From Deltaproteobacteria bacterium (GTDB lineage Bacteria; Desulfobacterota; Syntrophia; Syntrophales; UBA2210): a stretch of DNA of 6,887 bases. Where the stretch lies: assembly GCA_019314085.1 (NCBI GenBank), contig JAFCZZ010000199.1:1-6887 (forward strand), read 5' to 3'. The position numbers and the translations under genes are program-made. Positions within the stretch are counted from its first letter, which is position 1, and each line of letters opens with the position of its first letter. The notes beneath the pieces were generated by a model that was not told where the DNA came from, made no database searches, and saw only the letters and a list, made by a program, of their open reading frames with translations. Below are positions 1,766 through 6,887 of the stretch, piece after piece.

Positions 1766-1817
1766 GCCACATCGCAGATGTCAGTATTATCAAATATATG
1801 TTTTGGCGGTTTTTATC

Positions 1818-3581
1818 ATGACTGAGCAAAAAGAATTTGCAGAAGAGATATTATCAAATCCGACGATTCCCTGTAAGGCGATCCTTGACTCCGCTTATTT
1901 TGCGGTTATCGCAATCGATAGAGAAGGGTACGTGGTATATATCAATGAGATAGCGAGATCTTTGCTGGATTTCAAGCTGGAGATAACGCCCCGCCCCGTT
2001 CATTTTTCTGAGATTGACAATGATGCCTGGCTCGAGTTTAAAAAAGTTATAGAGACAGGTGAACCACAGATAACGATCCCTGTTGTAAATAAAAAGTATT
2101 CCTTGCTGGCTAACAGAACCCCCATCATCTGGGAGGGTGAACTGGTGGGGGTAATGAGCGTATTTCACGACAGGGAAGAGTACGAGAAAATATCCCAGTA
2201 CCTGTTCAGATATCAGGCGGTGGTACGTGAGGTCGAGGCAATTATCGGTTCCTCATATGATGGCATATATGTAACCGATGGTGAGGCTAATACGATACGG
2301 GTAAACAGTGCGTATGAAGATATCACCGGCATTAAGGCTTCGGAAGTGCTGGGGCACAATATGCGGGATCTTGTAGATGAGGGGTATTTCAGTGAGAGTG
2401 TTACGCTGAAAGTTCTGGAGGAGAGAAAGACCGTAACCCTCTCGCAAAAGCTGAAAACAGGGAAACGTATACTGGTAACAGGCAATCCTTTTTTCGATGA
2501 TGAAGGGAGGATCAAGATGGTCGTGACCAATGTCCGGGATATGACCGATCTGGACAGGTTAAATCAACGGCTTGAAGAATCTCTGGAGATGACGAGAGCC
2601 TACAGGGATAAACTCCAGAAGTTGCAATTATCGACATACAAAGATAATGAAATTATACGGGTCTCCAAGGCGATGAGATCCGTATATGAACTTGTCGAGC
2701 GCGTTTGCATAACAGATGCCACCATACTCTTCCAGGGAGAGACCGGTGTGGGGAAGGACAGAATTGCAGAGGAGATACATGCCAAGTCCGACCGTTCCGA
2801 GGGGGGAATTTTTGTAAAGATCAATTGCGGAGCTATCCCCGAAACGCTTCTGGAGAGTGAACTGTTTGGATACGAACGGGGTGCGTTCACGGGAGCCAGC
2901 AGAGAGGGGAAACCGGGGTTGTTTGAAGTGGCCGACAACGGGACTCTCTTCCTGGATGAAGTAGAGTCCATGCCGTTTGTCCTGCAGGGTAAATTGCTCA
3001 GGGTGCTGCAGGACTTCGAGATAACGCGGGTTGGAGGAACAGTACCCAGGAAGGTGGATGTGCGGCTGATATGTGCGTCCAACCAGGACTTGGAGGAACT
3101 GGTGCAGCAAAAGAAATTCCGTTTAGATCTGTATTATCTTCTGCGCGTAATTCCCGTTTATATCCCTCCCCTGCGCGAGAGGGTCGAGGATATACCTCAT
3201 CTGATAACGCTTTTTCTCAATCGTTTTAACAATAAATATTCCAAAAAGAAGGTCTTAAGTAGTGCGGCCATGGATACACTGATCAAATACTCATGGCCTG
3301 GAAACGTGAGGGAAATGGCCAACCTGATAGAGCGGCTTGTGGTTATTACCCCCGGCAACCGTATAGGCATCAACGATCTTCCGGCTGAGATATATAAGAT
3401 GCAGGAATATGAAAATATATGTCAGGGAGACACACTGCAAGAATACCTGCAGTGTGTAGAGATGTCCGTCATCCGCAATGCCATCAATAAATATGGCAAT
3501 GCACGGAGGGCGGCGCCATACCTCGGGGTGAATCCTTCAACGCTGACACGGAAACTCAAAAAATGTAATGATGCAGTTTAG
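1818..3581 (+). CDS. PAS-domain sigma-54-dependent transcriptional activator
   Basis: Enhancer-binding protein of 587 residues that would remodel sigma-54 RNA polymerase at a -24/-12 promoter. It has no phosphoreceiver domain. Two PAS sensor domains come first (about 15-130 and 140-245), so it probably senses a small ligand or redox state. A coiled-coil linker follows (about 246-275, DLDRLNQRLEESLEM). The AAA+ domain has Walker A GETGVGKD at 307-314, the sigma-54 contact loop GAFTGA at 355-360, Walker B GTLFLDE at 375-381, sensor I near CASNQD and sensor II near WPGNVREMANLIERL. A Fis-type HTH ends the protein (NARRAAPYLGVNPSTLTRKL). All motifs needed for activation are intact. The frame is open from a TTG at 1725, but that lies upstream of the predicted promoter; ATG 1818 has GGCGG seven bases before it. 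The adjoining sigma-54 promoter and abf genes suggest it regulates 4-hydroxybutyrate use. The ligand cannot be read from the sequence. Confidence 0.93.
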   Translation: MTEQKEFAEEILSNPTIPCKAILDSAYFAVIAIDREGYVVYINEIARSLLDFKLEITPRPVHFSEIDNDAWLEFKKVIETGEPQITIPVVNKKYSLLANRTPIIWEGELVGVMSVFHDREEYEKISQYLFRYQAVVREVEAIIGSSYDGIYVTDGEANTIRVNSAYEDITGIKASEVLGHNMRDLVDEGYFSESVTLKVLEERKTVTLSQKLKTGKRILVTGNPFFDDEGRIKMVVTNVRDMTDLDRLNQRLEESLEMTRAYRDKLQKLQLSTYKDNEIIRVSKAMRSVYELVERVCITDATILFQGETGVGKDRIAEEIHAKSDRSEGGIFVKINCGAIPETLLESELFGYERGAFTGASREGKPGLFEVADNGTLFLDEVESMPFVLQGKLLRVLQDFEITRVGGTVPRKVDVRLICASNQDLEELVQQKKFRLDLYYLLRVIPVYIPPLRERVEDIPHLITLFLNRFNNKYSKKKVLSSAAMDTLIKYSWPGNVREMANLIERLVVITPGNRIGINDLPAEIYKMQEYENICQGDTLQEYLQCVEMSVIRNAINKYGNARRAAPYLGVNPSTLTRKLKKCNDAV

Positions 3582-3603
3582 CATTATCCCACGATCTGCA
3601 TCA
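3569..3603 (+). terminator. Possible weak terminator hairpin at the end of the activator gene
   Basis: TGATGCAG (3569-3576) and CTGCATCA (3596-3603) form a perfect 8-base inverted repeat with a 19-base loop, spanning the TAG stop at 3579-3581. A T-rich but interrupted tail (AATTTCATTTGTT) follows. The loop is long and there is no clean U-run, so termination is only a possibility; it could instead be an operator or chance. Confidence 0.3.
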
Positions 3604-3662
3604 ATTTCATTTGTTACACTTGCTACAAACCTTTGAGCCGCTTCAAGGGATGCTCAACCTTA

Positions 3663-3682
3663 ATAATGCGCTGGAGCATTAT
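3663..3682. repeat. Inverted repeat, candidate upstream activator site
   Basis: ATAATGC and GCATTAT are perfect 7-base half sites around a 6-base spacer. The centre is about 220 bases upstream of the predicted sigma-54 transcription start, a usual distance for a dimeric Fis-type activator that reaches the polymerase by DNA looping. The right half plus two bases (GCATTATCC) is repeated at 3581-3589. Assignment to the adjacent activator is inference. Confidence 0.4.
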
Positions 3683-3837
3683 CCTGCCAGACCAACCTAA
3701 ATGGCCTGATTCCAAATAGATAGAGTCTCTTGTTGCCAAAATGATGCGGTCTGGAATTATTTTTCCCGAAGCAACAGTGGTGAACATAGGTGCATGCAGA
3801 TTCCAGTGGACGTGTAACTGCTCTGATTTACATATCT

Positions 3838-3853
3838 TATCAGGATGCTGATA
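3838..3853. repeat. Inverted repeat just upstream of the sigma-54 promoter
   Basis: TATCAG and CTGATA are perfect 6-base arms around GATG. The site ends 15 bases before the -24 element, closer than typical activator sites. It could bind a second regulator or be a low-affinity site; a 6-base palindrome can also arise by chance. Confidence 0.3.
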
Positions 3854-3868
3854 TTGCAGGCAGATGAA

Positions 3869-3884
3869 TGGCGTGAAAGTTGCT
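3869..3884 (+). promoter_or_regulatory. Sigma-54 (-24/-12) promoter for the abf cluster
   Basis: TGGCGTG, four bases, then TTGCT compares with the sigma-54 consensus TGGCACG-N4-TTGCW: the invariant GG and GC are exactly ten bases apart, and only two positions of the -24 box differ. The start would be near 3895, leaving a leader of about 85 bases before ATG 3980. It lies directly downstream of a sigma-54 activator gene with an intact GAFTGA loop, which supports the call strongly. Confidence 0.75.
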
Positions 3885-3922
3885 AGCAGCATTCTCAATA
3901 TATATGCAATACAAAACAGTCG

Positions 3923-3943
3923 CTGGTTGAATGAGTCAACCAG
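3923..3943 (+). repeat. Perfect inverted repeat in the abfD leader
   Basis: CTGGTTGA (3923-3930) and TCAACCAG (3936-3943) pair perfectly around the 5-base loop ATGAG. The site lies between the predicted sigma-54 start (about 3895) and the abfD ribosome site AAGGAG (3967-3972). In RNA it would form a stable 8-bp hairpin. No U-run follows, so it is not an obvious terminator. It could be an operator, an mRNA-stabilising hairpin or a protein-binding element. Confidence 0.5.
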
Positions 3944-3979: not shown

Positions 3980-5429
3980 ATGTCATTAATGAACGCAAAG
4001 CAGTACGAAGAGAGCTTGAGGAAGTTAAATTTCAAGATCTACATGTTCGGTAAACTGGTGGAGAACCCCGTCGATAATCCTATCATTCGTCCCTCCATGA
4101 ATGCCGTTGCCGCGACCTATGAATTCGCGCACTCTCCGGAGTATGAGGATCTTATGACGGCCACGTCCCATATCACGGGCAAGAAGATCAACCGCTTCTG
4201 TCATATTCACCAGAGCACGGAGGACCTGGTCAAGAAATCCAAGATGGGCCGACTCCTCGGATCGCTCACCGGTTGTTGCTTCCAGCGCTGTGTGGGGATG
4301 GACGCCATGAACGCCCTCTCGATGACCACGTACGATATCGACCAGAAGTACGAGACGGAGTATAACAAAAGTATAACAAACGCTTTTTGAAATATCTCGA
4401 ATACGTACAGGAAAACGATCTCACCTGTGACGGTGCCATGACGGACCCCAAGGGTGATCGGAGCAAGGCACCGCACCAGCAGGACGATCCGGACATGTTC
4501 ATGCACGTGGTAGAGGAACGCGAGGGCGGGATTGTGGTCAGGGGTGCGAAGTGCCACCAGACCGGGAGATCATTATCATGCCCACGATCAGCATGCGTGA
4601 AGAGGACAAGGACTACGCCATCTCCTTTGCTATCCCGGCGGACAGCGAGGGGATCACCTACATCATGGGCCGTCAGTCGTGCGATACCCGCAAGCTGGAA
4701 AAGGGTACCATGGATCGCGGCAACCAGCTCTACGGCGGTCACGAGGCCCTGGTGGTCTTCGACGACGTTTTCGTCCCCTGGGATCGGATCTTCATGTACA
4801 AGGAGTGGGATTTTGCCGGTCAGCTGGTGGAACAGTTCGCGTCGTACCACCGTCAGAGCTACGCCTGCAAGGCGGGGGTTGGCGATGTTCTTATCGGTGC
4901 CACCCAGACCATTGCCGAATACAACGGGGCCCAGAAGGCATCACATGTCAAGGACAAGATCATCGAGATGAATCACCTCAACGAGACCCTGTACTGCGGT
5001 TCTATTGCCTGTGCATCCGAAGGGCACAAAGAGCCGAGCGGCACCTACTACGTCAACACGCTCCTTGCCAATGTCTGCAAGCAGAACGTGACACGCTTTC
5101 CCTACGAGATCGCGCGTCTGGCTCAGGACATTGCCGGTGGCCTGATGGTGACCCTCCCATCGGAGGAAGACCTGCGCTCGCCCGAGGTCGGCAAGTGGAT
5201 TGAGAAATACTACAAGGGGAATGCGGATGTCCCCACGGAATACCGGATGCGGATACTGCGTCTGATCGAGAACATCACCCTGGGTACTGCCGCTGTCGGC
5301 TATCTGACCGAGTCGATGCACGGTGCCGGTTCACCTCAGGCTCAGCGGATCATGATCTCCCGGCAGGTCAATATGGATGCAAAGAAGAAGGTCGCCAAGA
5401 AACTGAGCGGTATTCCGAAGGATGAATAA
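3980..5429 (+). pseudogene. abfD: 4-hydroxybutyryl-CoA dehydratase / vinylacetyl-CoA delta-isomerase, frameshifted twice
   Basis: The intact enzyme is a cytoplasmic [4Fe-4S]/FAD protein that converts 4-hydroxybutyryl-CoA to crotonyl-CoA. Sequence along the whole length matches the Clostridium aminobutyricum enzyme as I recall it, but in three frames. Frame one covers 3980 to about 4380 and includes the cluster cysteines CFQRC (residues 100 and 104), then stops at 4390. Frame two covers about 4381-4566 (KYLEYVQENDL, GAMTDPKGDR, GIVVRGAKCHQTG). Frame three covers about 4566-5429 (EIIIMPTISM to the end). The first break is an exact 11-base tandem duplication at 4359-4380. The second fits loss of about 16 bases at 4564-4568, removing roughly five residues before the Glu of the usual NSHE motif. 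Undoing both gives 484 residues, against about 490 for the family. The equivalents of E257 (4743-4745), H292 (4848-4850), C299 (4866-4868), K300 (4869-4871) and E455 (5310-5312) are present, but the H-to-C spacing is one residue short. The ribosome site is AAGGAG at 3967-3972. Either a young pseudogene or a sequence error. Confidence 0.9.
4359..4380 (+). repeat. Exact 11-base tandem duplication inside abfD
   Basis: AGTATAACAAA occurs twice in a row (4359-4369 and 4370-4380). Removing one copy joins GAG-TAT-AAC-AAA directly to CGC-TTT-TTG-AAA-TAT and restores the expected family reading EYNKRFLKYLEYVQEND. With both copies present the frame ends at TGA 4388-4390. This identifies the duplication itself as the cause of the first frameshift. 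Confidence 0.95.
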
Positions 5430-5721
5430 CATACGCAAGATCGGCCTGAAGTACTGCGGGGGTTGTGCCCCGCAGTACGATCGGGTACAGGCGGTGGCGT
5501 CTATCAAGAGGCGCCTGGCGGGCAGGGTCGAGTTTGTTTCGTACGAGGACCGGGATGTTGAAGGGGTTCTTGTTGTAGTCGGCTGTCCCACCGCCTGCGT
5601 CGATTTTACGCCCTTTGAGGGGCGTCCCCTGTGGGTTGTGACCCGTGAACAGGATGCCGAAGACTTCATTGAAAAAATGAGAAAAATGGAGAATACCAAT
5701 GGACTGGAAAGAAGTATATAA
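5422..5721 (+). CDS. Small four-cysteine CGGC protein of unknown function
   Basis: A 99-residue protein that I cannot assign to a characterised family. It begins IRKIGLKYCGGCAPQYDR, with a CxxC pair at C12 and C15, and carries a second pair in VVGCPTACVD at C55 and C59. Predicted strands and helices alternate (LKYCGGC, a helix near 20-33, VEFVSY, GVLVVVGC, LWVVT, a final helix), suggesting a small alpha/beta thioredoxin- or ferredoxin-like fold. There is no signal peptide or membrane segment. The four cysteines could bind a metal or an Fe-S cluster, or act in thiol redox. Its ATG overlaps the last 8 bases of abfD and its end overlaps abfT by 23 bases, so it is probably translationally coupled within the operon. 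A role in cluster assembly, redox protection or regulation of the dehydratase is only inference. Confidence 0.85.
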   Translation: MNNIRKIGLKYCGGCAPQYDRVQAVASIKRRLAGRVEFVSYEDRDVEGVLVVVGCPTACVDFTPFEGRPLWVVTREQDAEDFIEKMRKMENTNGLERSI

Positions 5722-6887
5722 AAGCAAGCTCACGACTGCACAGGAAGCAGTGAAACAGATCAAATCGGGTGACAGGGTTGTCGTCGGTCATGCGACCGGA
5801 TCGCCGGAGGTATTGCTGAAGGCGATGGTGGATAATAAAGAGGCCTATGAAAAGGTTGAGATAGTCCACATGGTTGCGATGGGGCCTTCCGAGTATTGCC
5901 TTCCGGAGAATTCGGCTCATTTTATTCACAATTCCCTCTTTGCCGGTGGGTCAACCAGGAAGGCCATTCACGATGGGCGGGGCATCTTTACCGCTGCTCA
6001 CTTCAGCCAGATCCCCCGCCTCTTTACCGAAAAGATCCTGCCGGTTGATGTCACCCTCTGTATGCTTTCCGCGCCCGACGAGCATGGATACTGTTCGTTC
6101 GGTATATCGGTGGACTATACGAAGCCCGCGGCGGAAAGTTCCAGGGTTGTCATAGCGGAGGTGACACCTCATATGCCCAGGACACTGGGTGACGCGTTTA
6201 TTCATGTCTCTGACATAGACTATATCGTTGAATGTGACTCCAGGCCCATTGAGATGCAGCCACCGAAAATAGGCCCGATCGACGAGGCCATCGGGGGATA
6301 CTGCGCCGAATTGATACGGGACGGGGATTGCCTGCAGTTGGGCATCGGCGCCGTTCCCGATTCGATGCTGGGCTTCTTGAAGGACAAGAAAGATCTTGGG
6401 ATACATACAGAGATGTTTTCCGACGGAGTCGTGGATCTGGTTAATAAAGGCGTTATTACCTGCGCGAGGAAGAACTTCCATCCAAACAAGATGGTTGCCA
6501 CCTTCTTTATGGGAACGGAAAAACTGTACAGTTTTATTCACAACAACCCCAAGGTGGAGATGTTTACGGTGGATTACACGAACAACCCGGCTATCATAGC
6601 CAGGAATGACAATATGGTATCCATTAATTCTTCTCTGCAGGTTGATCTTACCGGTCAGGCAGCGTCTGAATCGATCGGGTATAAGCAGTTCAGCGGGACC
6701 GGAGGGCAGGCGGATTTTGTGAGAGGAGCCGCCTGGTCAAAGGGAGGACGTTCGATAATAGCCTTTCACTCAACGGCGGCCAAGGGGAAACTATCCAGGA
6801 TTGTTTCGCACCTTGATGAAGGGGCAATTGTAACGACCACACGGACGGATATTCATTATGTAGTAACGGAATACGGGATTGCCGATA
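5699..6887 (+). CDS. abfT: 4-hydroxybutyrate CoA-transferase, C-terminus cut by window edge
   Basis: Family I CoA-transferase of the acetyl-CoA hydrolase/transferase type. It would move CoA from acetyl-CoA (or a similar donor) to 4-hydroxybutyrate, supplying the AbfD substrate. The visible 396 residues start MDWKEVYKSKL, as in the C. aminobutyricum enzyme (about 438 residues as recalled), so about 40 residues are missing at the right edge. Seen here: the N-terminal domain with IKSGDRVVVGHA at 21-32, GIGAVP at 215-220, the catalytic glutamate in IHTEMFSDGVVDL at E238 (the same number as the known active-site Glu), the glycine-rich FSGTGGQADFVRGA from 331, and YVVTEYGIAD at the end. No frame breaks are seen. 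ATG 5699 has GGAGA at 5688-5692 six bases upstream and overlaps the preceding small gene by 23 bases. Closely related transferases for butyrate or acetate are possible; the abfD neighbour favours 4-hydroxybutyrate. Confidence 0.93.
   Translation, partial: MDWKEVYKSKLTTAQEAVKQIKSGDRVVVGHATGSPEVLLKAMVDNKEAYEKVEIVHMVAMGPSEYCLPENSAHFIHNSLFAGGSTRKAIHDGRGIFTAAHFSQIPRLFTEKILPVDVTLCMLSAPDEHGYCSFGISVDYTKPAAESSRVVIAEVTPHMPRTLGDAFIHVSDIDYIVECDSRPIEMQPPKIGPIDEAIGGYCAELIRDGDCLQLGIGAVPDSMLGFLKDKKDLGIHTEMFSDGVVDLVNKGVITCARKNFHPNKMVATFFMGTEKLYSFIHNNPKVEMFTVDYTNNPAIIARNDNMVSINSSLQVDLTGQAASESIGYKQFSGTGGQADFVRGAAWSKGGRSIIAFHSTAAKGKLSRIVSHLDEGAIVTTTRTDIHYVVTEYGIAD

Follow-up and report, generated by a model that had tools for sequence, protein, structure and literature searches.

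The abfD locus and its surroundings

The window, i.e. the complete stretch of 6,887 nucleotides that was analysed, carries a partial rsmB gene and fmt on the minus strand, both assigned from open reading frames (ORFs) and profiles. On the plus strand, an intact gene for a PAS/sigma-54 activator (1815..3581; ORF and profiles) is found. Between this gene and the dehydratase gene abfD lie three inverted-repeat sites with the pattern ATnATGC-N6-GnATTAT (3568..3760, plus strand; individual sites 3568-3587, 3663-3682 and 3741-3760). The expected number of matches in the window with at most one mismatch is 0.03, a value that has to be read in the light of the pattern having been derived from the window itself. 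Number and spacing of the sites (95 and 78) are the same in L112 from genome G024, the closest syntenic relative, where two of the three match the pattern exactly. It is likely that these putative sites are bound by the activator. A sigma-54-type promoter-like site, TGGCGTGAAAGTTGCT, is located at 3869..3884 (plus strand). It is an exact match to the sigma-54 pattern used in the search, and its GG and GC are kept in L112; allowing for at most one mismatch, two matches were found where 0.82 are expected, which is not significant alone.

The end of abfD is overlapped by a plus-strand gene for a 99-residue protein with a CGGC motif (5422..5721), which has no Pfam or NCBIfam match. A CoA-transferase gene with AcetylCoA_hydro domains is intact up to the edge of the window (5699..6887, plus strand); its score against TIGR03948 is 324.7 bits, under the cut-off of 674.8. 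Among 82 related loci, 35 carry a similar CoA-transferase gene and 28 a gene for a similar small protein directly downstream of abfD, and a similar activator is found close upstream in seven. Judged by their sequence, the surroundings of abfD are those of an orthodox sigma-54-type operon. All reading frames of the window other than abfD are open, in line with the preliminary description, which had regarded the control region and the downstream genes as intact. None of the papers listed in the literature searches deals with this locus.

The nearest full locus, L111 (genome G018), is without 2.1 kb of the window: the alignment skips from 1820 to 3923 (approximately 12160-12200 of L111), beginning just past the first codons of the activator gene. 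Activator, inverted-repeat sites and promoter are gone, and abfD is kept. L001 likewise has no activator between fmt and abfD.

The abfD gene itself lies in three pieces, which occupy three different reading frames of the ORF list. The N-terminal fragment (3980..4390, plus strand) comprises 136 residues, of which the final ones are aberrant, and ends with a stop codon at 4388-4390. The middle piece (4384..4563, plus strand) follows in a second frame and the C-terminal piece (4566..5429, plus strand) in a third, within an ORF that extends from 4551 to 5429. In profile searches, 3980-4387 corresponded to positions 2-131 of HpaB_N (E 7.7e-40), 4387-4563 to positions 131-188 (E 2e-26), and 4551-5426 to positions 195-270 and then to HpaB (E 5.1e-75). 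The solved structures nearest to the C piece are a vinylacetyl-CoA isomerase (6vjr) and a dehydratase/isomerase of GABA metabolism (1u8v), both with E values of about 1e-120; the next structure, from the HpaB hydroxylases, follows at 3e-17. Among the best 120 of 7997 homologues, the top five intact ones have 484 residues and are 93-96% identical to the C piece. The motifs TGCCFQRC and SYHRQSYAC, which we take to bear the cluster ligands, are undamaged, one in the N and one in the C fragment. The pieces, searched separately, thus belong to the AbfD family over its whole length, and the earlier identification as a 4-hydroxybutyryl-CoA dehydratase holds. Instead of a single uninterrupted frame of about 484 residues, however, the window contains three frames separated by two indels.

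An 11-base duplication and a 16-base gap

The first indel is an exact tandem duplication of AGTATAACAAA at 4359..4380 (plus strand), which shifts the frame by +11 and was detected by a sequence scan, by TRF and in alignments with relatives. The two copies (4359-4369 and 4370-4380) are directly adjacent, there is no further copy in the window, and 200 shuffles gave zero such duplications. When 82 related loci (912,523 bases) were scanned for exact adjacent units of 8-60 bases, with internally periodic units excluded, 38 such duplications were found. Five had units of at least 10 bases, and one had a unit of at least 11 bases that is not a multiple of three. As the scan gave just one other comparable case, the duplication is not a chance pattern. 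The exact unit was not found in 122 related loci, where the corresponding codons are spelled differently, so that this result has little bearing on copy number. The N-terminal ORF stops at 4390, and the family match resumes in the next frame immediately past the repeat. Both the duplication and its effect on the frame are therefore as first described.

The same is not true of its supposed origin by replication slippage. The exact match at 4359-4380 is not longer than the 11-base unit and the two copies have no flanking base in common, so slippage is not favoured. Alternatively, a duplication of this kind could be a target-site footprint, left behind when an insertion sequence departed. Target sites of 11 bases fit some insertion sequence families, and the missing flanking homology is in accord with this origin. 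However, no insertion sequence remnant is among the families of the window and the second indel would be left unexplained, which makes a footprint very improbable.

This second indel lies about 185 bases downstream. Between 4565 and 4566 (plus strand), the window is without at least 16 bases that relatives carry in every one of the 90 alignments across the two sites. In 80 of these alignments, the difference is precisely +11 and -16 bases; the 90 were drawn from 112 loci and do not represent 90 independent genes, several being one locus counted twice. In the remaining ten, 2-13 extra bases are placed at the repeat and 16-18 are lacking at the gap; these sizes are read as shifted gap placement. 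Twelve relatives aligned in detail likewise gave +11 at the repeat and -16 between 4565 and 4566. The gap removes residues 192-197 (GAVNSH), which are nearly invariant: in 115 full-length homologues, G, A and N occur in 115, S in 114, H in 112 and V in 109. The position of the deletion junction is uncertain by no more than one base. Since terminal repeats are absent, slippage is not favoured here either. Compared to L112, the other indels are intergenic, with the exception of a single-base indel within the final codons of the activator gene.

The +11 and the -16 do not compensate each other, and consequently the protein would remain broken after the loss of a single repeat copy. The statement that deleting one copy repairs the gene is correct for the local junction only; for the whole protein it fails at 4565|4566. 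The lesion is accordingly not the clean single event that had been assumed. The comparison with related genomes, which had been proposed as a check, recovers the 11 extra bases and in addition reveals the missing 16, which had been overlooked.

One may ask whether the fragments could act together as a split enzyme, with the N and C parts made separately and the latter started at the ATG at 4578. Each fragment keeps its motif intact, and a GGGAG is found 9 bases upstream of this ATG. On the other hand, neither fragment would supply the middle piece in its correct frame, and the nearly invariant residues 192-197 are missing. We therefore regard a split enzyme as hardly conceivable.

Conservation of the remaining sequence

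Apart from the two indels, the gene displays no sign of decay. The dN/dS values of the window against eight relatives are 0.041-0.070, and those of the intact copies among themselves are 0.029-0.075. At 235 columns with a conservation of 97% or more among 115 full-length homologues (five of 120, shorter than 440 residues, were excluded), the window departs once, at I20, a residue that is common to the homologues P0001 and P0006. For comparison, 54 of the 115 full-length homologues depart at least once. Relaxed selection on the rest of abfD was thus not found, either in the eight dN/dS comparisons or at the 235 conserved columns. Residues unique to the window in the C piece, in comparison with P0001-P0003 and P0005-P0007, are those at positions 340, 400, 468 and 482. 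Since the indels are the only decay observed, they are either very recent or absent from the organism.

The first case corresponds to a real and very young pseudogene, in which one indel inactivated abfD and a second followed too recently for further decay. Both indels fall within abfD, all other frames of the window being unbroken, and the four unique residues of the C piece are in agreement with this view. Of the two marks of a decaying pseudogene, frame-breaking lesions are present and relaxed selection is not; a very young pseudogene may be compatible with selection that appears unrelaxed. The counterargument is that two hits need time, and yet there is no excess of amino acid changes and none of the window's own at the 235 columns. 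We assign this explanation a probability a little short of an even chance.

Frame breaks in homologous genes

Another conceivable reading is that of a reversible phase-variable switch, operated by the loss of a repeat copy, or of a fragile stretch that is broken repeatedly. The N piece has 125 matches at E 1e-40 in 155 genomes of one order. Counted by eye, 112 of them lie in open frames of at least 440 residues and 13 in shorter ones. Four of the 13 were inspected: L125 and L126 run to a contig end; in L124 the similarity breaks off near residue 132, with about 200 bases of the contig left; and L123 (genome G102), a paralogue, truly changes frame near residue 134.

Short homologues were further considered as the best 120 of 719 (lengths 75-238), ranked against the 136-residue query. 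All of them end between residues 110 and 235, and 62 of the 120 carry tails of at least four unrelated residues. Among these 62, 11 end at residues 134-136 and one at 128-133. By eye, the frame shifts near residues 124-129 in six short homologues (P0168, P0179, P0181, P0194, P0200 and P0203). A reading of the ends as mere scatter is too simple in view of the 11 tailed homologues at 134-136. Frame breaks seem to be somewhat denser near residues 124-136, which speaks against a wholly arbitrary site of the break. This density may in part be an effect of ranking, because a query of 136 residues favours fragments of that length. The duplication of the window was absent from the protein ends of the 34 short homologues checked.

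The exactness of the repeat, its out-of-frame length, the breaks near 124-136 and the G102 paralogue speak for a switch or a fragile site. These points have to be weighed against the presence of two repeat copies only, the ranking effect, the 112 of 125 frames that are open in the genomes and the duplication's absence from the 34 protein ends. Phase variation was rejected mainly because of the second lesion at 4565|4566, which keeps abfD dead at any copy number: neither loss nor gain of one unit restores the frame. The switch proposed in the preliminary description consequently fails in the form given there; it could be upheld only if the 16-base gap were erroneous. Little credence can be given to either version.

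Origin of the two indels

According to the preferred explanation, two unrelated indels (+11 and -16) interrupt the frame of abfD, and nothing in this arrangement is programmed. What is observed are the two indels, the open neighbouring frames and the lack of other decay; from these we infer an assembly or consensus error, which we put at about an even chance and slightly favour over a very young pseudogene. Fragments of a well-conserved gene, possibly stemming from related strains that occur together, would have been joined end to end. One join would have kept an overlap of 11 bases twice, another would have skipped 16 bases, and the organism's own abfD would be intact.

Several observations support this explanation: the two frame-breaking indels are close to each other and lack terminal homology, dN/dS and conserved columns indicate no decay, the other frames of the window are open, and intact frames are the usual state (112 of 125 N-piece matches). 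Pseudogenes made by assembly are documented (PMC11017572).

The nearest relatives of each piece form a suggestive pattern. The N piece agrees with P0001 in 127 of 130 residues and with P0002 in 121, whereas the middle piece agrees with P0002 in all 60 residues and with P0001 in 55; for the C piece, the two are about equally near (277 and 275 of 287). At the positions that distinguish P0001 from P0002, the window agrees with P0001, P0002 or neither 8, 2 and 1 times in the N piece, 0, 5 and 0 times in the middle piece and 4, 2 and 0 times in the C piece (counted by eye). As a weak indication, this would be consistent with a joining of sequences from strains that occur together. However, the DNA identity to L112, L111 and L001 is flat across the borders of the middle piece. 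Moreover, P0002 may itself be the mosaic, as it is identical to P0003 except for four positions, all in the middle piece.

Further points argue against an assembly error. The usual sequencing error concerns one base, and lengths of 11 and 16 bases are atypical. A real pseudogene would likewise show two hits, and the denser breaks near residues 124-136 could mean that the site is truly fragile.

With regard to a possible second copy of abfD in the host, the C piece has, in the nearest genomes, six matches in G001 (next best 42%), three in G018 (the other two 37% and 42%) and seven in G024 (next best 61%). Ten plasmid records were matched in a search for a plasmid origin, none over 80% of the query. 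A homologue of 173 residues, P0121, on a contig of 1745 bases, changes frame behind TDP. Judged by eye, the tail of P0121 corresponds to the window DNA near 4450 read in another frame, which would make this homologue a second broken copy with window-like sequence.

A more far-reaching scenario is that a natural strain has just lost AbfD by two quick indels and has kept a complete sigma-54 control region and the CoA-transferase. Broken and intact abfD would then coexist in the community, the broken form living on the metabolism of its neighbours, and residues 124-136 would perhaps be fragile. We consider this scenario unlikely.

The consequences differ. If the indels are assembly errors, it would be wrong to conclude that the organism has lost its 4-hydroxybutyrate metabolism. 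If they are real, a key radical enzyme has only recently been lost, with its control otherwise intact. The case also calls for caution: the striking repeat was noticed first, yet it is the second break in abfD that defeats the idea of a switch.

Comparison with known systems

In the given sequence, abfD of the window is an ordinary doubly frameshifted gene. Its three pieces span the family of AbfD (1u8v; relative 6vjr) in order and keep both ligand motifs; unlike in AbfD, the frame is broken twice and residues 192-197 are absent. With phase-variable genes that contain out-of-frame tandem repeats, it shares an exact repeat whose copy number is out of frame, but it has two copies only and is damaged at a second place. 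With the frameshifted genes of draft and metagenome assemblies, as documented in PMC11017572, it shares several frames without other decay; it differs in the size of its indels, 11 and 16 bases, and in that an assembly cause is here no more than the slightly favoured reading of the sequence.
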